From: a virus
Strand: one strand, 5' to 3'
Virus record (IMG/VR): IMGVR_UViG_3300009136_000024
Coordinates: 1 to 34,147 of that record
Length of the DNA: 34,147 bases
A program made the translations under genes and the position numbers. A model generated the notes under the pieces. That model had not been told where the DNA came from, ran no database searches, and was given only the letters and a program-made list of their open reading frames with translations. Below are positions 7,889 through 30,641 of the stretch, in pieces (position 1 is the stretch's first letter; each line of letters starts with the position of its first letter).

Positions 7889-8628
7889 TAGAAGCTCCCG
7901 AAGGCGTTCGGATTGACAGTCTTACCCGTAACCGCCTTCGTGGCAATCGAAACAGCCAGTGCGTTTAGCACCCTGTCAACCAACGCAGGGGCAGCCTTCT
8001 TCAGTGTAACACCCAGGCCTAGCCGCCTCGGGATGCGTACCGTCTTCATCAGAATGTAGATCGGTACCACACGTCCACCCTTCTTGATGGCGACGACGAA
8101 ACCACTACGGGTTCGACCAGTTCTTGAACTCTCCAGGGGCATCAGGAAGGTGTTGTTCCACTGGCGAAGACTGGGGCGCAACGGCACGCCGCGCGAATCC
8201 ATAGCGGCAGGCAGCGGGATAGTCATGTACTGCTTCTTCGCATGAATCGTCCGTCCCTCTTCATGCGTGGTGAGATAGAACGGCCCACCGATCGTGCCAA
8301 CGATGCGCCCCCCGGCGGTGACCTTGATGTCCCGTAGCTGGGTGGTGGCCTTCCCGCTTCGCTTCGCGAGCCTGCCAGTAGTCGGTCCAGCGGGGAGCTT
8401 CACCCCAGGCTGCCAGGGTGTGCTGTGTCGCTGCACCATCGCCTCGGCCACTAGGTTCAGATGTCGCCGAAGCACGGCTGCGATGATCGGGTTCACTTCC
8501 CTCACCGACACCGCTTGTCCCACGTCCTTGGCGAACGCGTGCAGGCCTTTCGCAGCCGACTCAAAGGTGCGGTTACCTTCCGGTCCATGGATGCGTAGTT
8601 TGAGATCGAAGAGTCCGTCGTTCGGCAT
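7888..8628 (-). CDS. Head-tail junction / tail completion protein (HK97 gp10-like or minor tail)
   Basis: 246 residues, ATG at 8628 overlapping the upstream TAA as TAATG. The protein is basic and has HEEGRTIHAKKQYMTIPLP near residues 121-140, a pattern seen in neck and tail completion proteins that sit at the head-tail interface. It lies between the gp6-like connector and the tail terminator, the usual slot for this function. No transmembrane segment is present. Its length is greater than many gp10-like proteins, and the C-terminal third (KKGGRVVPIYILMKTVRIPR) also appears in other minor tail proteins, so the exact class is uncertain. Confidence 0.65.
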   Translation of the reverse strand: MPNDGLFDLKLRIHGPEGNRTFESAAKGLHAFAKDVGQAVSVREVNPIIAAVLRRHLNLVAEAMVQRHSTPWQPGVKLPAGPTTGRLAKRSGKATTQLRDIKVTAGGRIVGTIGGPFYLTTHEEGRTIHAKKQYMTIPLPAAMDSRGVPLRPSLRQWNNTFLMPLESSRTGRTRSGFVVAIKKGGRVVPIYILMKTVRIPRRLGLGVTLKKAAPALVDRVLNALAVSIATKAVTGKTVNPNAFGSF

Positions 8629-14466: not shown

Positions 14467-14849
14467 GTCAGTTCCTTTCGCCCGTGCGTCAGCATGACGT
14501 AGCGTCGCTCGGAGGGCAGGTATTCAAGCCACTCGTTGACCCAGGGACCGCGGAACGATAGCACCCAGGCGCGGCCGGAGACCTTCACCATGTGGAAGGT
14601 GTCTTTGCGAGTGATGAACGGCATCCAGCTCGCCTCATGAACTTCCGTCTTCCCACCGAGGTGGTACTCGATCAGCTTTCCGCGGAGCACCCACGAGAAG
14701 CAATCGAATGCGTGTGTGTGGTAGGCGTCGCGACTGCCGTGATCGAAGCGCAGCAACACCGCGCTGAACAGGCGTTTGATCTCGATCGCGAAGAACCCCC
14801 AGACCGTGGACTCCACCCCACCATCTTTTCCCCAATGCATGAACCTCAC
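14463..14849 (-). CDS. Cupin-fold protein
   Basis: 128 residues from GTG at 14849, which overlaps the upstream stop as GTGA; ATG at 14840 is an alternative. Residues 41-63 (DAYHTHAFDCFSWVLRGKLI EYH) and 75-90 (WMPFITRKDTFHMVKV) form the two cupin motifs, with His44, His46, His63 and His86 as plausible metal ligands. The small beta-barrel could bind a metal and a small ligand. The substrate cannot be deduced. It lies between the endonuclease VII-like gene and the small zinc-finger gene in an accessory stretch next to the head genes. Confidence 0.75.
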   Translation of the reverse strand: MRFMHWGKDGGVESTVWGFFAIEIKRLFSAVLLRFDHGSRDAYHTHAFDCFSWVLRGKLIEYHLGGKTEVHEASWMPFITRKDTFHMVKVSGRAWVLSFRGPWVNEWLEYLPSERRYVMLTHGRKELT

Positions 14850-15274
14850 CCTAGATACTCCTTTGCTGCATCGAGCAGCTTCGCGCTGTCCTTGAAATTG
14901 CCCAGTCCCAGGTTGCAGCCGCGGCAGAGAAGCCCGCGCACCACCCCGGTGTCGTGGCAGTGGTCAACCTGCAGCGTGGCCTCGTTGATTTCGTCCTGGC
15001 AGATCGCACACGCATGGTTCTGGCCTCGCAGCATCTCTTGCGTTTGCTCGGGGGTGATGCCGTACTTGTGCTTTCGCGCCGCTCTGGCCTGCCGCCTGGG
15101 GTCCGCCAGTCTCCACTGCTTCTGTCGGACACGCGCCTGGGCTCTGTATTTGTCGGTGTCTCGGCGCGCACTATCGCAGGGCTTGCAATACACCCAGAGC
15201 CCGTCTTCGTAGTTCTTGTTGCGGGAGAACTCGCTACGCGGCTTCTCCACTTTGCACGTCGTACAGACCTTCAT
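14846..15274 (-). CDS. Recombination endonuclease VII-type HNH nuclease
   Basis: 142 residues from ATG at 15274, which overlaps the upstream stop as ATGA; a GTG ten codons upstream is less likely. An N-terminal zinc ribbon (CTTC near residue 4, CKPC near 30) precedes a basic linker. Residues about 70-141 match the endonuclease VII family: YGITPEQ, CAIC at 89-92, VDHCH at 103-107, GLLCRGCNLGLG at 114-125. The zinc and catalytic layout (two CxxC pairs, D104, H105, H107, N121) parallels T4 gp49, which resolves branched DNA before packaging. Branch resolution or nicking during packaging is the likely role. Confidence 0.88.
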   Translation of the reverse strand: MKVCTTCKVEKPRSEFSRNKNYEDGLWVYCKPCDSARRDTDKYRAQARVRQKQWRLADPRRQARAARKHKYGITPEQTQEMLRGQNHACAICQDEINEATLQVDHCHDTGVVRGLLCRGCNLGLGNFKDSAKLLDAAKEYLG

Positions 15275-16803
15275 GCTGCCATCAGCCAAGGAGCTGCATT
15301 CCACGTGCCGTCCGGCAGGATGTTGATGAGCTGTCGCTTGCCATTCGGGTGGATGATGGCGTGTGTGTTCATCCAGCTCGACGGTCCCTTCGTGTATTCG
15401 AGGGACAGATAGGTGCTGGTACCAACTTGGTAACAGCCACGCGTGATGCCCGGCGAGTGCGAGTGCCCGATGATCGAGCGCACTCCGATGTCAGCGAGCA
15501 CCTGCCGTGAGCCCCAACGTCCGTTCGGTCCAACATCGCCATGCATGGTGATCAGGATGCCCTTGATCAGCACGGGCTCGTCGCGCCCAGGGAACATCGT
15601 CTTCGTTTCCATCTTGCCCTTGCACCAGAGAGCGAAGGGGTCGGGCATCTGCATCTGGCGTTCGGTCATGCGTACTTCGCTCAGCACGGCTGACATCATC
15701 TCGTGATATAGCTTCGCGTTCCACGGCTCGTCAGCGATCTTCACTTCCTTCAGCCAGCGGGCGAAGTGCTCGTTGTGGTTCGAGGAGACGACGACGTTCG
15801 TGCAGTCATCGGGAGTGGTGCCATCGATGAACTCGCGTGTGGCGTTCAGCTCATCCTCGATCCGCTGCAGCCCCCACTCGTGCTTCGCATACTGAGTGAA
15901 CGCATTGCGCTGGTGGTGGTGCGAGATCGAGTACCCATCCAACACGTCATGGATGGCACGAATCTTCGGCCGCAGCACACGGGAGATCGAGTCTTCATTG
16001 TCGAAGGTCGCTTTCCGTACCACTTCCGAATGCCATAGAGCATGCGAGTCGCCCGTGATCAACCCCTCGACTCGGATGTTATGCTTCGACTCCTTCGCGC
16101 TGTAGTAGCGGTCGAGGTCGAAGAACGCGCCGTTCTCCTGCATGGCGACGTGACGCAGATGGAAGTACTTCCCCTGCTTCTCGACCACGTTGAAGCCCGG
16201 GGTGTGATGGAACTCAGCTCGGGCACCGGCTCGGGTCGTGCTGTAGTTCTTACGCGACAACGAACCAGTCGAGTGCAGGATCACCGGTAGCTCTGCCTGG
16301 GGAGTCGCTACCGTCTGCATCGCAACCTGGGAGTGACCGATGATGCAGGATTGCCCCTGCGACATCGGCTGGAACCCCGACAGCGGGTTCACAGCCGTGG
16401 CCTGCACTCGAACGTGGCCCATCACCTTGAGCTTGGGGTGCAGAGGGATCTCAGAGTCACAGAGGTACGGGACCACTTCCTTGGGCCACCAGTAGTCCTC
16501 TTGTGCACCGAAGCCAGTCGGGTTCTTGTACCGAACCGGGATCACCAGAAGCTCTGCCTCATTCTCATCGCAGTATCGCTTCACTGCATCGAGCTTCGGC
16601 ATGTCGATCTTGGTGTTGTTCTGGGCGCACGTGACGACGAACCGCTCACCCTTGGCTAGAGCCCGAACTTCCTTGGCGCTCTTCTCGAACACCAGTTCGG
16701 GCTTGCCCTTGAGGAACTCGTCCAGTTCCTTCTGCTTGGCGGCGGGGTCTATTGCCCGCGTGCGGCTCTTACCGGCCACGTCGCTGAGCCCTTCCACGGA
16801 CAC
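15271..16803 (-). CDS. Large calcineurin-like metallophosphoesterase (possibly T5 A1-like DNase)
   Basis: 510 residues from GTG at 16803; GTG at 16779 has a better upstream GGAAGGG and overlaps less with the upstream gene. Metallophosphoesterase motifs are visible in order: GDSH at 251-254, VVSSNHNEHFARW near 338-350, TMHGD at 419-423 and IIGHSHSPG at 444-452. Together these give the Asp, Asn and His ligands of a dinuclear metal site. About 240 N-terminal residues precede the core and are not recognised, apart from a basic start. Size and motif order recall the T5 A1 protein linked to host DNA degradation, but I could not check this. It lies upstream of the endonuclease VII gene. Confidence 0.75.
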   Translation of the reverse strand: MSVEGLSDVAGKSRTRAIDPAAKQKELDEFLKGKPELVFEKSAKEVRALAKGERFVVTCAQNNTKIDMPKLDAVKRYCDENEAELLVIPVRYKNPTGFGAQEDYWWPKEVVPYLCDSEIPLHPKLKVMGHVRVQATAVNPLSGFQPMSQGQSCIIGHSQVAMQTVATPQAELPVILHSTGSLSRKNYSTTRAGARAEFHHTPGFNVVEKQGKYFHLRHVAMQENGAFFDLDRYYSAKESKHNIRVEGLITGDSHALWHSEVVRKATFDNEDSISRVLRPKIRAIHDVLDGYSISHHHQRNAFTQYAKHEWGLQRIEDELNATREFIDGTTPDDCTNVVVSSNHNEHFARWLKEVKIADEPWNAKLYHEMMSAVLSEVRMTERQMQMPDPFALWCKGKMETKTMFPGRDEPVLIKGILITMHGDVGPNGRWGSRQVLADIGVRSIIGHSHSPGITRGCYQVGTSTYLSLEYTKGPSSWMNTHAIIHPNGKRQLINILPDGTWNAAPWLMAA

Positions 16804-18740: not shown

Positions 18741-19622
18741 CTACATGTCCTCCTTCGATCGGAAGCCGAGGAACACCGGGAAGCGAGGCTTGCCCTCGTC
18801 CTTGGCTCCTGCGGGCTGGAACTTGTACTTGACGATCTTGCCAACCGGCTGGCTCTGCCAGAACATCAGCCGCTGCGCGGCGGTGTACCCAGTGCCGATC
18901 TCGAACTCGACCCCAGTGGTCAGGTCGCGCACAGCGAACTTGCCCAGGCTGCCCTTGCCAACCTTGCCCTCCTTCGCGGAGCTTCGCTCGGTGCGACCGA
19001 GAGCATTCGTCTTGGCGGGGTTCAGGTTGGCCTGCTCCTCGATGCATCCGAGGATCTCAGCCTCACTGTCCTCGAACCGCTTGAGCTTCAGCATGCCCTG
19101 CTCGTTCTTCGTCGAGCGGCCGAACTTGTACGTGTGGTTGGGGCAGCGCGTGATCACGCCCTCGAAGCCATCTTCGAGGCACTCGATCTCGAACTCCAGA
19201 AGCTCTTCGGGAGTCTCGCAGATGCGCGGTCGCACGAACTTGATGAAGCTCGGCAGACCCTGCGCCGTTTCCGCGAGAACCTGCAGGCGCTGCACGTAGG
19301 TGCCCTTCGCCATCCACAGGTCGAACACCCAGTACTCGAACATGGGCTCACCAGTGCGCTTCATGACTGCACTGGAGACGGTCCCGAAGTCCTTGGCCCC
19401 AGGCACCATCAGCTCTCCGTCCAGACCCTCGACGCCTAGCATCGTCAGAGTCTCGCGGATGTGGATGTTCTGGATGTCCTTCAGGGTGCGAGACTTCGGT
19501 GCCCCGCCCTCCATGGTGAGACAGCGGATGCCATCGAACTTCGGCGTCGCGATCAGCGGGAATCGCAGGATCGCGAAGTCAGCTTCGGTGATGGTCTTCG
19601 AGCAAGCGAGCATGGGTTTCAT
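18741..19622 (-). CDS. ATP-dependent DNA ligase
   Basis: 293 residues from ATG at 19622, which overlaps the RapZ-C gene stop as ATGA; the longer in-frame extension is arginine-rich shadow sequence. Nucleotidyltransferase motifs are in order: I, KFDGIR at 28-33 with Lys28 as the AMP-bearing residue; III, FEYWVFDLW at 95-103; IV, EGVITR at 154-159; V, LKLKRF at 178-183. A C-terminal OB-like domain follows (GKFAVRDLTTGVEFEIGTGY, then GKIVKYKF). The length fits compact phage DNA ligases. It seals nicks during replication, recombination or repair. DNA rather than RNA specificity is inferred from the OB domain and motif spacing. Confidence 0.9.
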   Translation of the reverse strand: MKPMLACSKTITEADFAILRFPLIATPKFDGIRCLTMEGGAPKSRTLKDIQNIHIRETLTMLGVEGLDGELMVPGAKDFGTVSSAVMKRTGEPMFEYWVFDLWMAKGTYVQRLQVLAETAQGLPSFIKFVRPRICETPEELLEFEIECLEDGFEGVITRCPNHTYKFGRSTKNEQGMLKLKRFEDSEAEILGCIEEQANLNPAKTNALGRTERSSAKEGKVGKGSLGKFAVRDLTTGVEFEIGTGYTAAQRLMFWQSQPVGKIVKYKFQPAGAKDEGKPRFPVFLGFRSKEDM

Positions 19623-20014
19623 TCTGTGTTCTCCGGGTGCTGTGTGTGGGAAACGGTGATCGTGTGATCGACGTTCTTCAGGTTGCCCCGAAGAGCGATA
19701 GCGAGTTGCTCGGCGCAGTAGACGGAGCGGTGATGCCCACCCGTGCAGCCGAAGCCGATGCGGTACTGGAAGCCGCCGTTCGTGCGGCGCGCCTCGTTCT
19801 CGATGCCAGCCTGGGCGAGGTGCGCCACGTGGGTGACGAAGTCGCGAACCTGGGGGAACCGCGCGAACCATGTCTTGACCGCCTCGTCTGTTCCGTTGAG
19901 GGGTCTGAGGTCGCAGTTGCGGTAGGGGTTCGGGAGGAAGCGCGCGTCGAGCTGTAGGTCGCTCTCGTAGGACGCACCGTACTTGTGTCCAAAGCTGAAA
20001 ATCGTGATGTCCAT
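19619..20014 (-). CDS. RapZ C-terminal-domain-like protein (RNase adaptor-like)
   Basis: 131 residues from ATG at 20014. A TTG at 20032 overlaps the upstream stop as TTGA and would add six residues, but a -10 box lies exactly 6 nt before the ATG. The protein matches the C-terminal half of RapZ: TIFSFGHKYG (4-13), LDARFLPNPY (22-31), LRPLNGTD, then IGFGCTGGHHRSVYCAEQLA (86-105). In enteric bacteria this domain binds the sRNA GlmZ and senses glucosamine-6-phosphate, while the N-terminal GTPase-like half is absent here. A stand-alone phage version could bind host RNA or interfere with envelope-precursor control. The ligand is unknown. Confidence 0.88.
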   Translation of the reverse strand: MDITIFSFGHKYGASYESDLQLDARFLPNPYRNCDLRPLNGTDEAVKTWFARFPQVRDFVTHVAHLAQAGIENEARRTNGGFQYRIGFGCTGGHHRSVYCAEQLAIALRGNLKNVDHTITVSHTQHPENTE

Positions 20015-20020
20015 AGCGGT

Positions 20021-20049
20021 AGTGTAGCTCAACTTCCTTCGTTCGTCAA
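20021..20049 (-). promoter_or_regulatory. Promoter candidate, leaderless geometry, for the RapZ-C gene
   Basis: TTGACG at 20049-20044, 17-bp spacer, TACACT at 20026-20021 on the minus strand, then exactly 6 nt to ATG at 20014. Transcription from this promoter would begin at or next to the A of ATG, giving a leaderless mRNA. The promoter lies inside the end of the upstream 67-residue gene. Confidence 0.6.
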
Positions 20050-20232
20050 CGTATCAAGGTCTGCGCGCTTCTGCTCGATCTCCGTCAATCGGCAATCGAA
20101 ACGGTAGAGGCGCTTGCATGCTTGGCATTCGAGGTGCATCGCACCATCGATGATGAGGTCGCCCTTCGGCCCACCCAGGGCGAGCTTCCCGCACTTGCAC
20201 TCGAACCGTGGGAAGCTCCCCTGGTATTTCAC
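20029..20232 (-). CDS. Small zinc-finger protein
   Basis: 67 residues from GTG at 20232, sharing GTGA with the stop of the DUF6011-type gene. ECKCGK near residue 11 and ECQACKR near residue 35 give a four-cysteine zinc site, with LYRFDCRL following. The C-terminal helix ends LTEIEQKRADLDTLTNEGS and carries the -35 part of the next promoter in its codons. The family is not named; a small nucleic-acid-binding or adaptor protein is likely. Confidence 0.7.
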   Translation of the reverse strand: MKYQGSFPRFECKCGKLALGGPKGDLIIDGAMHLECQACKRLYRFDCRLTEIEQKRADLDTLTNEGS

Positions 20233-21398
20233 TTGCAGCCTCCGCAGTCGACCAGCATGCCCTCGGGCGTGAGATCCTTGCCCGTGTCCATGCAGACTTC
20301 GCAGGTGAAGCCGAAGTCCTGGGCCACCGGCTCGGGAGTCGCCATCTCGATCGCCTCAGCGGCCTCTGCCGCGAGATCGATGCCTACGATGACCGCCGGT
20401 GCCTCTTCGGCCTCGATCGGCTCTGTGAGGCCAGTTGCCGCCACAGCCTTCGCGAACCCCTGGACGCCGGTGACCGCGGTGCCAGTGGCCTTCGCCAGCT
20501 TCTGCATCTGCTCGACCGCGTCGCCCATCTCGATCCACTTCGAGGGGCTGGCCTCGACCTTGAACGAGTCGGGGTTGGCGACCTCCACCACGTTCTGCTT
20601 GGTGGTCGGAGAGAAGAACGTGCCGGTGCCAGCGGGCTGGAACGTGGCGTCCGCCGGGATGGTGACGCCAGCGGCCTTGGTGGCCTTCTTGCCCCAGGGC
20701 AGATCGAACTTGGAGGCGCACACCGGCCCGTAGCCCATCGCCTTGCTGTCGACCGTGTCGATCGCCTTCGCGCAGAAGCAGCAGTGCATGGTCGAGAGAC
20801 CGTAGGCGGTACCCATCTTCGTGGGGTCTTTCGCGAACTCGACCACGAACGCCTGGATCTCGGTGCTGGCCTTCGGTGCCGGGTGATACACGCCGTCCTC
20901 GATGCGCCCGTAGTAGTGCGACTGCCCGTACGCGCCACCGCTCGTGATCATGACCTGACCCTTGAACTTCGAGGCCTTGCCAGCGATCTTGAAGCCGACG
21001 CGCGGAGTGTTGGGGCTCTTCTCGGAGGGCTTGAACTTGATCTGCGGGCGCTTCTTGCCGCCCTTGGCGAAGACGAAGTCTTCGGCCTTCTTCAGCATCT
21101 CGTAGAGCGCGGTGCCCACGATGTGGTTGAGGGGAGGAGCGGGAGGCGTGCTGACCACGTCCTTGAGTGCGTTCGCCAGCGGCGTCAGAACGACGTTGCC
21201 CGGGTTGATCACCGACTGCGCCTTCTCGGCGTAGACGCGAACCCAGTGCTGCTGCTTGGGGGAGTTGGTCCCGTACTTGGCTTTGCCAGCCAGGAGGGAC
21301 TTCACGAAGCCCTGGGACTTGAACGGGATCGCGTCCATAGCCGCGGGGTTCTTGAAAACTTCGTACGCTTCTTCGATTGAGATCTTCGGGTCTGCCAT
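20229..21398 (-). CDS. DUF6011-type zinc-containing protein
   Basis: 389 residues from ATG at 21398 with AAGGAGACTGAC upstream. Residues 204-230 (MHCCFCAKAIDTV and YGPVCASK) match the DUF6011 pattern of a CxxC knuckle followed by GYGPxCA, common in phage and bacterial proteins linked to DNA handling. Residues about 30-60 (FVKSLLAGKAKYG, PKQQHWVRVYAEKA) resemble the N-terminal part often found with it. The region of residues 160-200 is a conserved-looking beta part (SHYYGRIEDGVYHPAPKAST). A second CEVC/CGGC pair ends the protein after a low-complexity alanine-glutamate stretch. The biochemical role is unknown. It has its own promoter at 21423-21451. Confidence 0.75.
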   Translation of the reverse strand: MADPKISIEEAYEVFKNPAAMDAIPFKSQGFVKSLLAGKAKYGTNSPKQQHWVRVYAEKAQSVINPGNVVLTPLANALKDVVSTPPAPPLNHIVGTALYEMLKKAEDFVFAKGGKKRPQIKFKPSEKSPNTPRVGFKIAGKASKFKGQVMITSGGAYGQSHYYGRIEDGVYHPAPKASTEIQAFVVEFAKDPTKMGTAYGLSTMHCCFCAKAIDTVDSKAMGYGPVCASKFDLPWGKKATKAAGVTIPADATFQPAGTGTFFSPTTKQNVVEVANPDSFKVEASPSKWIEMGDAVEQMQKLAKATGTAVTGVQGFAKAVAATGLTEPIEAEEAPAVIVGIDLAAEAAEAIEMATPEPVAQDFGFTCEVCMDTGKDLTPEGMLVDCGGCK

Positions 21399-21422: not shown

Positions 21423-21451
21423 AGATTAGGAGAAGGAACCGCGTACGTCAA
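21423..21451 (-). promoter_or_regulatory. Promoter for the DUF6011-type gene
   Basis: TTGACG at 21451-21446, 17-bp spacer beginning TACGCGG, TAATCT at 21428-21423 on the minus strand. About 24 bp later comes the ATG at 21398 with a good ribosome-binding site. The TGA inside TTGACG is the stop codon of the upstream gene at 21448. This is one of the best sigma70-like promoters in the window. Confidence 0.75.
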
Positions 21452-22609: not shown

Positions 22610-23116
22610 TCAGTGTCCTTTGTTCGGGGATCCAATCAGATCCAGTGCCTTGGTGTATCGATCCGCAATCGAATCGCCCTGAGCGAGGCTGCGCTCAAGG
22701 TTGTCGTGAATGTCGTGGAACTTGATGAAGTGCCCGTCCGGCGTGCTCGCCGCGCGCTTCACGAAGTCACGGTAGATCTCGCCGCTTTTGCGGGACACGG
22801 CCACCACGGCGTCGGCCACGCGCTCACCGAAGCGGCGCGCAATGTCTTCGCGCTGGACACCAGCCACGCCATCGCCGGTCGGCAGCGCGGTCGGGCCTTC
22901 GCCGTGCGCGACGTAGGGGTTGGTGTCTTCGATCACGTCGTGGAGTACGGCTGCGATCTGGAGATCCTCGTCACCGCCGTGGGCGCGAACGCGCTCCATC
23001 ACGCGGAGCGAGTGGAAGATGTGAGGAGTCCCGTCGCGATCAGTCTGCCCGGCGTGCGAGCGGATCGCGAACAGGATCCCTTTGTCCAGTCTGGTCAGTT
23101 GTCCTTGTTCGGTCAC
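22610..23116 (-). CDS. HD-domain hydrolase, MESH1/SpoT (p)ppGpp-hydrolase-like
   Basis: 168 residues from GTG at 23116, chosen because AGGAG lies 7 nt upstream; ATG at 23131 lacks a site. Residues 13-66 carry the MESH1/SpoT HD pattern: LFAIRSHAGQTDRDGTPHIF with His21 and His35, then IAAVLHDVIEDTN with His59-Asp60 and the ED pair at 63-64. These are metal and catalytic ligands of alarmone hydrolases and related HD enzymes. The protein has only the hydrolase part and no synthetase domain, as in small alarmone hydrolases. Other nucleotides may be the substrate. It overlaps the upstream small gene by about 77 nt. Confidence 0.8.
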   Translation of the reverse strand: MTEQGQLTRLDKGILFAIRSHAGQTDRDGTPHIFHSLRVMERVRAHGGDEDLQIAAVLHDVIEDTNPYVAHGEGPTALPTGDGVAGVQREDIARRFGERVADAVVAVSRKSGEIYRDFVKRAASTPDGHFIKFHDIHDNLERSLAQGDSIADRYTKALDLIGSPNKGH

Positions 23117-23225
23117 AGTCAGGCTCCTCATCGGACGCGAAGTCCAGCTCGAATCTCTCGCGGGCGCTGCGCTCTGTCAGCTTCTTCTCGCGACGGTCTT
23201 TCATCGGGGGTCCACACCGCTTCAT
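23040..23225 (-). CDS. Small highly charged protein overlapping the HD hydrolase gene
   Basis: 61 residues from ATG at 23225 with a near-ideal site (AGAAGGAGACCGCC). The protein is almost entirely charged or polar (KDRREKKLTERSARERFELD) and ends 77 nt inside the HD gene in another frame. The strong start argues that something is translated here, but the unusual overlap lowers confidence in the C-terminal half. Translation may chiefly serve to couple the HD gene. Confidence 0.5.
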   Translation of the reverse strand: MKRCGPPMKDRREKKLTERSARERFELDFASDEEPDCDRTRTTDQTGQRDPVRDPLARRAD

Positions 23226-25168: not shown

Positions 25169-26404
25169 CTACCCCTTGACGCACACGCGTGCACGTAGAG
25201 TGTGCTTGATCGAGACCAAGTCCTTCTGGGCCTCCATCACTGCATCGATGTCCTTGTAGGCTCCGGGCGTCTCGTCGATGACACTCTCGTCCTTCCGACA
25301 CTCGACTCCCTGCGTAGCCTTCACGTGGTCTTCCACCGTGAACGTCTTCCGGGCCTTGCCGCGCGACATGCGTCGCCCAGCTCCGTGGCTGCACGAGTGG
25401 AAGGCCTTCTCGTTGCCCAGTCCTTCCACGATGTAGCTCCGCGTGCCCATCGAGCCCGGGATGATGCCCATGACACCCTCGCGGGCCAGGACTGCGCCCT
25501 TGCGCGTGACGAACACGTTCTCCCCGTAGTGGTGCTCGCGAGCGACGTAGTTGTGGTGGCACTCGACGATCGTCTCGCCGCCATACTCACCAACCCAGCC
25601 GAACGAGCCGCCCAGGTGCTTCATCGCGTTCATGACGTTGGTCATCATGATCTGACGATTCAGTTCGGCGTATCGCTGCGCCCACATCACCGCTTCCCAG
25701 TACTCGTCGAAGCCCGGCGTGCCTTCGGGAAGGAACGAGAGGTTCGAGTCTTCCAGATCCACGAAGTAGGCCTCGCACGTGGTCTTCGCCTTCGCGATGA
25801 AGTGCTGTCCAATGCGATTGCCGATGCCACGCGAACCAGAGTGCAGCATGAGCCACACGTTCTCGTCTTCGTCGAAGCAAATCTCGATGAAGTGGTTACC
25901 GCCGCCCAGCGTGCCTAGCTGGCGCTGTGGCGTGCCCCACTTCCCGATGCGCGGGTTCTTCGTGACGATGTCATGGAACGCACCACACAGCTCGTTGTTC
26001 CAGTGCTTGACCGCCAGTGCGTGTGGGTCGCCCCAGGCACCGCGATCATTCGCGCCGCCGTTGTCCGTGCGTCCGTGCGGAACGTGCTTCTCGATCGTCG
26101 CTCGCACTTCCTCAGCACGGTCGTTCAGCTCGTCCGCGCTCACGCCGGGAAGCTTGCGTGCCAGCATGCCGCAGCCAATGTCCACGCCTACTGCAGCGGG
26201 GATGATCGCGCCGCGCGTCGGGATGACGCTGCCGACCGTGGAGCCCATGCCCCAGTGCACGTCGGGCATGACCGCGAGGTGCTTGTAGATGAACGGCATG
26301 TCGCGCGTCCGCAAGAGCTGCTCGAAAGCCTCCTGCTCTACCTCGACCCCATTAGTCCAACCAAAAATCGGCTTCTTGTTCTTGCCCGGGTTCAGATTTT
26401 CCAT
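25169..26404 (-). CDS. rtcB: RtcB-type RNA-splicing ligase
   Basis: 411 residues from ATG at 26404 with GGAGAAACGG upstream. RtcB joins 2',3'-cyclic phosphate (or 3'-phosphate) RNA ends to 5'-OH ends, using GTP and Mn2+. Key elements are all present: MPDVHWGMG (46-54), GVDIGCGM (73-80, with Asp75 and Cys78), LGGGNHF (166-172, His171), HSGSRG (188-193, His188), CHHNY (282-286), SHGAGR (339-344, His340 as the guanylylated residue) and the final VKG. Length is near the bacterial norm. No archease or RtcA partner is in the window. It lies within a cluster with an Rnl2-like ligase, a KH protein and a RlaP-like enzyme, which fits repair of RNA cut during host defence. Confidence 0.95.
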   Translation of the reverse strand: MENLNPGKNKKPIFGWTNGVEVEQEAFEQLLRTRDMPFIYKHLAVMPDVHWGMGSTVGSVIPTRGAIIPAAVGVDIGCGMLARKLPGVSADELNDRAEEVRATIEKHVPHGRTDNGGANDRGAWGDPHALAVKHWNNELCGAFHDIVTKNPRIGKWGTPQRQLGTLGGGNHFIEICFDEDENVWLMLHSGSRGIGNRIGQHFIAKAKTTCEAYFVDLEDSNLSFLPEGTPGFDEYWEAVMWAQRYAELNRQIMMTNVMNAMKHLGGSFGWVGEYGGETIVECHHNYVAREHHYGENVFVTRKGAVLAREGVMGIIPGSMGTRSYIVEGLGNEKAFHSCSHGAGRRMSRGKARKTFTVEDHVKATQGVECRKDESVIDETPGAYKDIDAVMEAQKDLVSIKHTLRARVCVKG

Positions 26405-26951: not shown

Positions 26952-27247
26952 GACCTCCCCTCGAAGATGTGCCAGACCCACTGGGAGTCGAAGAAGGTTG
27001 CGACGAACTCGCCGTACTCACACGCGTCGAACTCGCGCCCGGTTCCGACCATGATGAACTTCCGGGTCTGTCGACCCTTCACCTCGTTGTCGACCTGTGC
27101 CCACATGCACACGCTGTTCGCCTGCATGGCGACCTTGCGAATTTCTGAGTGGGAAGGCATCTCTACCTCGGTGGTGAAGACGCCATCGCCGACCTCCTTC
27201 AGGTCGAGCGAAAACTTGTGCATCACGTTGTGTGTCGATATCCGCAT
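26948..27247 (-). CDS. DUF7352-like small phage protein
   Basis: 99 residues from ATG at 27247, with AACAGGAG about 10 nt upstream and a 25-nt overlap with the upstream membrane gene. The sequence VEMPSHSEIRKVAMQANSVC MWAQVDNEVKGRQ then FIMVGTGREFD fits a widespread small phage domain (mP.. then ..lWa.vD.. then v.GTG). Its role is not known. It precedes the KH gene in the same unit. Confidence 0.7.
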   Translation of the reverse strand: MRISTHNVMHKFSLDLKEVGDGVFTTEVEMPSHSEIRKVAMQANSVCMWAQVDNEVKGRQTRKFIMVGTGREFDACEYGEFVATFFDSQWVWHIFEGRS

Positions 27248-27615
27248 TCTGGATGGACTCCTGTTCGTTGTTCGTACGGGGAGGGGCCGAGGACCGCGCG
27301 ATCAACGCGTTCCCTGGCGATGAGGCTCCAGAAGAAGAAGACCACATGAATCGTTCCCCAGACCCAGCGTCCTTGGGAGAAGGCCAACGCGGCGAGCGCG
27401 AAGCTCAGGTACATGCCGAAGCTGTACCCCCAGCGTGGGGCGTGTGCGTAGGAGCGTATGCGCGACGCGGCCTCCGACAGGATGTTCCCATCGGGATCCT
27501 CTCCCTCCGGGCCTGTCGAAGACTTCCGGGTGGATCCACGGTGATCAACCGCAGACTTCCCGGCACCTCGTCGCACGTTCTTTTTGGCGTGCTTGAAATC
27601 GATGACTGTTGCCAT
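27223..27615 (-). CDS. Membrane protein with basic N-terminus, leaderless start
   Basis: 130 residues from ATG at 27615. No ribosome-binding site precedes it; instead a -10 box ends exactly 6 nt upstream, so the mRNA is probably leaderless. The first 50 residues are basic and polar (FKHAKKNVRRGAGKSAV). Two hydrophobic segments follow (GMYLSFALAALAFSQGRW and VWGTIHVVFFFWSLIA), then a polar tail. The family is not recognised; a membrane-associated takeover or exclusion protein is possible. Confidence 0.7.
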   Translation of the reverse strand: MATVIDFKHAKKNVRRGAGKSAVDHRGSTRKSSTGPEGEDPDGNILSEAASRIRSYAHAPRWGYSFGMYLSFALAALAFSQGRWVWGTIHVVFFFWSLIARERVDRAVLGPSPYEQRTGVHPECGYRHTT

Positions 27616-27621
27616 GTGATC

Positions 27622-27650
27622 AGAGTAACCTAAGTTGGAGGGTACGTCAA
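27622..27650 (-). promoter_or_regulatory. Promoter with leaderless geometry for the 27615 gene
   Basis: TTGACG at 27650-27645, 17-bp spacer beginning TACCCTCC, TACTCT at 27627-27622 on the minus strand, then GATCAC and ATG. The TGA in TTGACG is the stop of the deaminase gene. The distance from the -10 box to the ATG puts the expected +1 on the A of ATG. Confidence 0.7.
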
Positions 27651-28135
27651 CCAGTTCCGATGCGACTTCGTGCCAGATCGGGATCGTTGATGACGCTGCA
27701 CCGGATCAGCTCGACTCCGCGCTCCTCAGCCAGGGCCGCAGCCTCAGCGAAGGCGTACTTCGGGTCATCCAGGCGATCGCGGAAGGGATCGTTGTCGTGG
27801 TCGATGATGATCCGCTTCACCCCGGCGTCAGCCATCGTCTTCACGCAGTTGTAGCAGGGCGTGCCCAGGGTGAGCACCGTGTGAGGCTTCGCCCCAGTGC
27901 TCGCACACTCGGTGATCACGTTGACCTCGGAGTGGGTGGAGAGTTCCAGCCGCGCGTCTCGTGTCAGTGTCTCGGGCGCACCATGCTCGATGAAGTTCGC
28001 GCGGATCGCCCGCACGTCTCCTCGTGTGCATACCGCGACCGCGGCAGTCTTCGTCACCGGGTCGTTCGAGTACTCGCAGTGGCCGCGAAGGTAGTCGAAC
28101 AGTTGGTGCACCTTGTAAGTCTGGATGTTGGACAT
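27647..28135 (-). CDS. dCMP / cytidine deaminase-like protein
   Basis: 162 residues from ATG at 28135, overlapping the upstream TAA as TAATG. The zinc deaminase motifs are HSE at 68-70 (within LSTHSEVNVITECAST) and PCYNC at 93-97 (within TLGTPCYNCVKTMADAGVKR), with Glu70 as proton shuttle and His68, Cys94 and Cys97 as ligands. Such enzymes convert dCMP to dUMP for thymidylate synthesis in many phages. The HSE variant of HAE is tolerated in the family. The substrate could also be cytidine or a modified base. Confidence 0.85.
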   Translation of the reverse strand: MSNIQTYKVHQLFDYLRGHCEYSNDPVTKTAAVAVCTRGDVRAIRANFIEHGAPETLTRDARLELSTHSEVNVITECASTGAKPHTVLTLGTPCYNCVKTMADAGVKRIIIDHDNDPFRDRLDDPKYAFAEAAALAEERGVELIRCSVINDPDLARSRIGTG

Positions 28136-29086: not shown

Positions 29087-30079
29087 TCAGTCATGTTGTC
29101 CGATCGCTTCCGCGTAGCACGCGACCACGCGAGCGTCGGCCCACTCCCTGTCGGGACTGTTCGGCAGCTTACTCGACTCCATAGCCACGTCAAGCTGCTC
29201 CATTCCATTTTCGATCTCTTCGGCGACTTCCTTGTACGGTCGCTCGCCCAGGCGGATCTTCAGAAGTGCGTCAGCGTTGTGCCTGGGGAACGTGATCACT
29301 CCCGTGTCCAGCAGTTCGCAAGCCTGATCTTGGATCCGCCGCGCGTGCATCAGCGCCTTCCAGTCGATGCCCTCGTTGTTCATCGCCGCACGGCTGCGCT
29401 CGCCGTACCGCTGCCACAGGTGCTGGTACATCTCCAGAGCCTTCTCGATCGGCAGCGTGAACGGCGCGAGCTTCCCGCAGACACTGAGGTGCTTCACCTC
29501 GTGGCCTTCGCGGTTGTACCGGCTCTCGATCTCGATGTGCTCCCTATCGAGCAGTCGATCCTCGATCATGTGCTGGAAGTCGATCACACGCGCACGTCCG
29601 GCCATCGGACGCGGAAGCGTCTGCATGTCTTGGAACACCTCGACCGCAGCCTTCGCCGCAGCCATGCGCGAGCCCTTGATCCCGTACTTGTTTGCCTGGG
29701 ATCGGCAGTAGCCCACGAACGGCGCGATCGATCGGGAGATCAGCTTGTCGCGATTCCCAACGATGATGCGCCAGTGGTTGCTCGAACCCGTGTAGAACGC
29801 CTCGGGCACGAAGAGCATGTCGATGGCAACAGTCTGCCCTTCGCACGCGAGCTTCATGAACCCGTGCAGGCTGAACTCTTCCACGTCGATGTCGCCGACC
29901 TGATTCTTCGAGCGATCGTTTCCCGTGCTGCGGTTGCGCGAGACCTTCGTCGCACGCTGCAGCAGGAGATCCTTCGTGGAGGGAATGAAGACTGCCTTGA
30001 AGTCCATGTCGCTGTCCGGCGTGTTGGTGCCATAGACGTGCGACCCGAACTGCATGTGGGCCAGAGTGATTTCTTCCAT
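29087..30079 (-). CDS. RlaP-like nucleotidyltransferase (polymerase-beta superfamily, RNA repair type)
   Basis: 330 residues from ATG at 30079, shortly after the upstream stop. The N-terminus has the minimal polymerase-beta signature: FGSHVYGTNTPDSDMDFKAV (11-30), that is GSHxYGT with the metal-binding DSDMD at 22-26. IDVEEFSLHGFMKLACEGQT (near 76-95) and a long helical C-terminal region follow. This fits the PF10127/RlaP group, which genome analyses tied to RNA ligases and proposed to repair cleaved tRNA or other RNA ends. The adjacent phosphoesterase and the nearby RtcB and Rnl2-like ligase strengthen that reading. The exact activity is unproven. Confidence 0.82.
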   Translation of the reverse strand: MEEITLAHMQFGSHVYGTNTPDSDMDFKAVFIPSTKDLLLQRATKVSRNRSTGNDRSKNQVGDIDVEEFSLHGFMKLACEGQTVAIDMLFVPEAFYTGSSNHWRIIVGNRDKLISRSIAPFVGYCRSQANKYGIKGSRMAAAKAAVEVFQDMQTLPRPMAGRARVIDFQHMIEDRLLDREHIEIESRYNREGHEVKHLSVCGKLAPFTLPIEKALEMYQHLWQRYGERSRAAMNNEGIDWKALMHARRIQDQACELLDTGVITFPRHNADALLKIRLGERPYKEVAEEIENGMEQLDVAMESSKLPNSPDREWADARVVACYAEAIGQHD

Positions 30080-30080
30080 G

Positions 30081-30641
30081 TTAGTCCCGGTTGTTCTTTC
30101 TGTTGTGATGGTCAACGATGTGTGGCTTCCGAACGCTCAGCATCTCAACCACGCGGTCGAACGAGATCATGCCCTCGTCCCAGCCGATCCACTTGCAGTC
30201 GATGCCCACGTCCATGCGTGCGCCCTTGGGCGGCAGCGAACCGTGGGAGTGCCCGTGCAGATGGAACGAGCCGTGGTGATGGTTGCGCCAGACCTCGAAC
30301 GCGTAATGGCTCAGCATCACTTGGAAGCCCTTGTGCTTCAGCTCGTAGTAGTCCCGCACCATCGCCCAGCCATGAGTCTTCTTCAGTTGCTTCGAGTGGT
30401 CGTGGTTGCCCTTGATCAGGATCTTGTTCCCAGGCAGCCGCGAGAGGATGCTCGAAGTGCGCCCGGCGTTGTGGAACGAGAAGTCCCCAACGAAGTAGAC
30501 CGTGTCGCCACGCTGCACCTTCTGGCACCAGAGACTGATCATGCACTCGTCCATGTCGTCCACGTTCTTGAACGGACGATTCGAGTACTTGATCACGTTC
30601 TCGTGACCGAAGTGAAAGTCTGCAGCGAACCAGATGCTCAT
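30081..30641 (-). CDS. Calcineurin-like metallophosphoesterase
   Basis: 186 residues from ATG at 30641 with ACGGGAAAC upstream. Motifs are complete: ADFHFGH (7-13, with Asp8, His10 and His13), GDFSF (52-56), GNHD (78-81), LSHYA (110-114) and HGHSHG (129-134). It is a compact single-domain phosphoesterase of the kind encoded by many phages. Next to a RlaP-like nucleotidyltransferase it may process 2',3'-cyclic or 3'-phosphate RNA ends before ligation; dephosphorylation of other substrates is possible. The stop is one base before the next gene's start region. Confidence 0.88.
   Translation of the reverse strand: MSIWFAADFHFGHENVIKYSNRPFKNVDDMDECMISLWCQKVQRGDTVYFVGDFSFHNAGRTSSILSRLPGNKILIKGNHDHSKQLKKTHGWAMVRDYYELKHKGFQVMLSHYAFEVWRNHHHGSFHLHGHSHGSLPPKGARMDVGIDCKWIGWDEGMISFDRVVEMLSVRKPHIVDHHNRKNNRD

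Follow-up and report, generated by a model that had tools for sequence, protein, structure and literature searches.

The closest described relatives of the protein reported here are RapZ of E. coli and its full-length homologues YvcJ of B. subtilis and HpaP of Xanthomonas. The C-terminal domain (CTD) of E. coli RapZ has a pocket in which sulfate or malonate is held by H190, H252 and R253 together with the main chain of T248 and G249 (PMC5737377). The isolated CTD binds GlcN6P with a KD of 10 nM, and its self-interaction is lost when D182 is changed to Ala (PMC7073468). Only Enterobacteriaceae have the basic RNA-binding tail of RapZ (PMC7073468). RNase E is bound by neither RapZ domain in isolation, and its binding requires the tetramer (PMC9841335). 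YvcJ and HpaP share the C-terminal domain family with the phage protein, and differ from it in having a P-loop NTPase domain at the N-terminus; activity as NTPase/ATPase and as phosphatase has been reported for the whole protein. YvcJ, like the phage protein, lacks the enterobacterial tail (PMC7525490).

Stand-alone RapZ C-terminal domain (RapZ-C) proteins are also carried by phages and are grouped in phrog_18111, for example RcZahn gp140 and its counterparts in Rhizobium phage RHph_TM16, Thermobifida phage P1312, Streptomyces phage Abt2graduatex2 and Gordonia phage Tarzan. Like the protein described below, they consist of the domain alone (109–152 aa), have an invariant C-x5-R loop, and come from genomes with no RapZ N-terminal domain above the cut-off. 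They are about 28–39% identical to it and differ in their neighbours (sugar genes, helicase, HNH, integrase). We found no published study of a viral stand-alone RapZ-C.

The window, that is the whole stretch of DNA analysed here, is a linear IMG/VR virus fragment of 34,147 bases. It carries tape measure, minor tail protein, protease and capsid genes, nearly all on the minus strand. Capsid proteins with about 50% identity to that of the window were present in Rhodobacter phage RcZahn, Rhizobium phage RHph_TM16 and Vibrio siphoviruses, and the first two phages likewise encode a lone RapZ-C. The features discussed below, all on the minus strand, were:

18741–19622, minus strand: ATP-dependent DNA ligase (PF01068 E=5.1e-11, PF14743 E=5.2e-13)
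19619–20014, minus strand: stand-alone RapZ C-terminal domain protein (PF22740, phmmer to 5o5s, AlphaFold2 model)
19727–19747, minus strand: C90–R96, CTGGHHR, the C-x5-R phosphate-binding loop, E. coli C247–R253 (sequence, alignments, PMC5737377, PMC9841335)
19925–19948, minus strand: DARFLPNP motif, codons 23–30, in which D23 corresponds to E. coli D182 (sequence)
20021–20049, minus strand: promoter-like TTGACG-N17-TACACT before RapZ-C; seven bases past the -10 box lies the A of the ATG, at about the predicted +1 of a leaderless transcript
20029–20232, minus strand: 67-aa gene with no assigned function, ending 14 nt before the RapZ-C ATG (ORF list, domain search)
20229–21398, minus strand: 389-aa protein with a DUF6011 zinc-finger-like stretch (PF19474 1.1e-07)
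21423–21451, minus strand: promoter-like TTGACG-N17-TAATCT upstream of the DUF6011 gene (sequence)
27622–27650, minus strand: promoter-like TTGACG-N17-TACTCT, separated by 6 nt from the ATG of the gene at 27223–27615, which has no Shine-Dalgarno-like site

The protein of 131 aa, read from an ATG at 20014 to a TGA at 19621–19619, is in its whole length a RapZ C-terminal domain. It matched PF22740 with E=1.3e-31 (109.8 bits, gathering cut-off 27) over residues 1–123 and profile positions 1–117 of 121. The phmmer match to 5o5s, the E. coli RapZ-CTD, had an E-value of 9.3e-20, and that to phrog_18111 an E-value of 1.3e-16. Only the C-terminal part of NF003828, the RNase adapter RapZ equivalog, was matched, with 105.2 bits, below the whole-protein cut-off of 244. 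The AlphaFold2 model (pLDDT 93.6) agreed with 5o5o at Z 19.9 and 1.7 Å, and with 5o5s (residues about 153–284) at Z 19.8 and 1.8 Å over 122 residues, with about 36% sequence identity. The GC content by codon position was 0.59/0.44/0.82, a pattern typical of the real genes of this phage. An earlier sequence-only reading of the locus had described an intact GCTGGHHRSVYCAEQLA signature and DARFLPNP motif in a domain devoid of its kinase-like half, and all three points held. PF03668, the RapZ N-terminal kinase-like domain (RapZ-N), was detected neither in the gene nor anywhere in the 34-kb record, itself a fragment.

Lone domains of this kind are widespread in viruses, so the idea that the copy in the window is unusual is wrong; it is a further member of an already known viral form. 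By tblastn, the phage collection yielded 65 records with relatives, several of them full-length (e.g., in Microcystis phage MaAM05), others consisting of the domain alone or fused to other parts. The IMG/VR loci, the annotated phages and the window formed 57 clusters at 75% identity, a few of them full-length (e.g., L010 and L005). Structure search also recovered proteins of giant viruses that bear the annotation RapZ C-terminal domain, and stand-alone copies in phages amounted to dozens. With only the window protein as query, a scan of viral contigs gave no confirmed relative. A separately encoded RapZ-N in these phages was considered and rejected: PF03668 was above the cut-off in none of 31 virus records whose RapZ-C copy comes without RapZ-N (the window and 30 others), while it was detected in the full-length control, L010.

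The bacterial sample covered two phyla, one that of a Streptomyces locus and the other that of a Pectobacterium locus, with 198 and 200 genomes. PF22740 was matched in 187/198 and 158/200 of them, once per genome in all 345. Among the matches listed, the bacterial frames were of at least 280 aa, except two of 198 and 185 aa, and no clear stand-alone RapZ-C was seen among those listed from the 398 genomes. In this sample the lone domain thus looks like a mainly viral form. In a tree of 92 domains and 127 columns, the window protein, L012 and the HNH-fused copies fell inside cellular RapZ and the other viral copies mostly outside; the window protein sat on a long branch, and we do not rely on the tree for its origin. 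One phage record, L015, had two RapZ-C copies (2600–2995 and 8004–8366).

The phosphate pocket is mostly retained. The alignment places C90, T91, G92, H95 and R96 of the phage protein at C247, T248, G249, H252 and R253 of E. coli RapZ, and D182 and R184 are also kept, whereas the position of H190 is a Tyr. Cellular copies have His, Tyr or Phe there (Tyr in 11/38). Seven residues (D23, P30, C90, G93, H95, R96 and H123) did not vary across an alignment of 48 sequences, almost all of them stand-alone copies from viruses. Many of these loci were fetched by a pattern built on loop residues (C, G, H, R, S and V), a bias that spares only D23, P30 and H123. Nine sequences obtained without the loop pattern (the window, seven annotated phages and E. 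coli) likewise had C90, G93, H95 and R96 in common. Outside the pocket, the phage protein differs from E. coli RapZ in the missing N-terminal kinase-like domain and in its C-terminal tail, which reads VSHTQHPENTE against RHRTLEKRK in the enterobacterial RNA-binding tail.

The pocket residues make binding of a sugar phosphate by the phage protein plausible. A ligand of this kind had been proposed from the sequence, and the proposal holds up in view of the GlcN6P affinity of the isolated E. coli CTD; the T, G, H, R and C of the pocket are retained, and the Tyr at H190 speaks against it. We tentatively favor the reading that RapZ-C is a free phosphate-ligand-binding phage effector, with a sugar phosphate such as GlcN6P as the leading candidate, and regard it as possible rather than probable. 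It would be a small cytoplasmic protein, presumably a homodimer as in E. coli. The phosphate-bearing ligand would be held in the pocket formed by the C-x5-R loop (C90-T-G-G-H-H-R96) and the FLPNP loop. Lacking the kinase-like half and the basic tail, the protein would form no RapZ tetramer and hand over no sRNA to RNase E; it may instead bind or sequester its ligand during infection, with a putative effect on the host.

The neighbors of RapZ-C in some related phages agree with a sugar-phosphate ligand. In Rhodobacter and Rhizobium phages the gene adjoins epimerase, aminotransferase and glycosyltransferase genes (L002 9004–15625; L007 7998–13181), and RcZahn additionally encodes a PIG-L deacetylase, which fits an amino-sugar link in these phages. 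Against such a link, PIG-L occurred in only 2/30 RapZ-C records, so that we rejected this deacetylase as a general partner, and no amino-sugar gene was recognized in the window. Against phosphate-ligand binding itself stands H190, which is needed for E. coli RapZ function and is the one replaced by Tyr in the phage protein, although the 11/38 cellular copies noted above also have Tyr.

The viral stand-alone proteins are numerous and diverse in sequence, and they carry the pocket of a conserved cell-wall-precursor regulator without its kinase half and its RNA tail. With the pocket isolated in this way, viral copies could therefore show the pocket's own role.

For expression, transcription of RapZ-C may start from its own promoter at the ATG, or else run in an operon with the DUF6011 protein and the DNA ligase. 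A Shine-Dalgarno-like site at normal spacing was present before most genes of the window but not before RapZ-C, where the nearest one, AAGGAAG, lies 18 nt upstream. The pattern GTTGACG-N17-TACWCT-N6-ATG occurred exactly twice in the window, at 20012–20050 (RapZ-C) and at 27613–27651 (minus strand), both times at genes without a Shine-Dalgarno-like site. Shuffled sequences averaged 0.2 matches to the full promoter-start pattern with three mismatches allowed; as the pattern was defined from its own two sites, this count is suggestive and not an independent test. A generic promoter scan was at chance level (3 found, 3.3 expected). The repeated arrangement suggests that the two genes have leaderless transcripts from a common promoter type. 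The leaderless start put forward for RapZ-C in the sequence-only reading is thus plausible, given the promoter-like site at the ATG and its repetition at 27651, but it would not be the only way of expression: a read-through mRNA with a leader, coming from the gene that ends 14 nt before the ATG, is also likely. The site at 21423–21451 is probably the head of a transcription unit.

In the direction of transcription, the genes are ordered DUF6011 protein, 67-aa protein, RapZ-C and DNA ligase, with the ligase ATG overlapping the RapZ-C stop (ATGA, 19622–19619). The neighboring ligase, already named from the sequence, was confirmed by its two domain matches. Ligase relatives lay near RapZ-C in only three of the 30 other RapZ-C records (L026, L034 and L038), which are related loci, and the ligase was rejected as a general partner. 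The DUF6011 protein had relatives in 11/30 of these records, close to RapZ-C in nine and distant in two. It is common in Pseudomonas phages, with matches in 266 phage records, and the RapZ-C records represent few lineages; it was rejected as an obligate partner. An RNA-repair link was also considered. The window encodes, all on the minus strand, an RtcB RNA ligase (25169–26404), a second RNA ligase (PF09414; 23843–24868) and an RlaP-type nucleotidyltransferase (29087–30115), which make up a set of RNA-repair genes in a single phage, but RtcB was found in none of the 30 other records, and the link was rejected. The gene context gives no single pathway, as neighbors vary by lineage (HNH, DUF6011, ligase, sugar genes). 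The window also has an endonuclease VII-like protein (14846–15304, minus strand) and an HD-domain protein (22610–23131, minus strand).

An alternative, which we consider unlikely, is that RapZ-C is an RNA- or DNA-binding accessory protein whose pocket grips the phosphate backbone and which acts together with nucleases or ligases. In E. coli, the backbone of GlmZ is touched by this pocket (PMC9841335), and in the window RapZ-C overlaps the ligase gene, an arrangement whose weight is reduced by the low counts of ligase and RtcB in the other records. The missing basic RNA-binding tail also argues against nucleic acid as the ligand. RapZ-C is fused to an HNH-like part in Corynebacterium phages, combined with both a kinase-like and an HNH-like part in phi16, and has an HNH gene as its neighbor in Gordonia phage Tarzan. 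The HNH-like and kinase-like fusions point to a nucleic-acid role in other phages.

Fused proteins were seen at several loci. Corynebacterium phage phi16 (L009, 6581–7672) encodes an AAA_33 kinase-like domain, RapZ-C and an HNH-like C-terminal part in one protein. RapZ-C with an HNH-like part was present in Samwavirus Stiles (L003), L081 and L086.

It is similarly improbable that the protein is a small cysteine phosphatase with a PTP-like C-x5-R-S loop, acting on a small phosphorylated metabolite, a protein or a nucleic-acid end. C90-x5-R96-S97 fits the motif C-x5-R-[ST], with a strand (83–90) before and a helix (96–111) after it in the model and the alignment. The conservation of this loop in pattern-selected loci is partly circular. 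By hhalign, the RapZ-C family and the phage DSP-type phosphatases (PF22784) were matched with 47% probability and their loops, GFGCTGGHHRSVY and AIVCSGGHGRSGT, were aligned, but the match spanned 19 columns only. Structural comparison of the model with PTP-fold proteins gave Z 4 to 6 for DSP phosphatases (5.7 for the archaeal-virus DSP 7ncy) and 4.5 for Tk-PTP, in the range of common arrangements. PTP chains were listed only below Z 6, which is weaker than the similarity to phosphofructokinase (Z about 7), and we do not take them as a sign of shared ancestry. The exchange C247S abolishes E. coli RapZ activity, and a catalytic SH was proposed by the authors, although this could simply follow from the loss of GlmZ binding that the study also describes (PMC9841335). 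Phosphatase activity reported for YvcJ (PMC7525490) may stem from its N-terminal NTPase half.

A broader version of the phosphatase reading is more doubtful still: stand-alone RapZ-C would form a virus-specific family of PTP-like phosphatases, for GlcN6P-like metabolites or RNA/DNA ends, and a cryptic activity of the same kind would explain the essential C247 of cellular RapZ. The literature leaves open why C247 is essential in E. coli RapZ, and under the C-x5-R reading this can be tested directly on the 131-aa protein.

That the phage protein retargets RNase E or GlmZ and so alters host glmS expression, as first suggested for this locus, is very unlikely despite the retained RapZ-C fold and part of the pocket, because the basic GlmZ-binding tail, an enterobacterial feature (PMC7073468), is missing together with the N-terminal domain, and because RNase E, which needs the tetramer, is bound by neither E. 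coli domain in isolation (PMC9841335).

Genes for DSP/PTP-type phosphatases (PF22784) were located within five genes of RapZ-C in three phage loci (L071, 21–371; L018, 4798–5385, minus strand; L020, 5816–6595).
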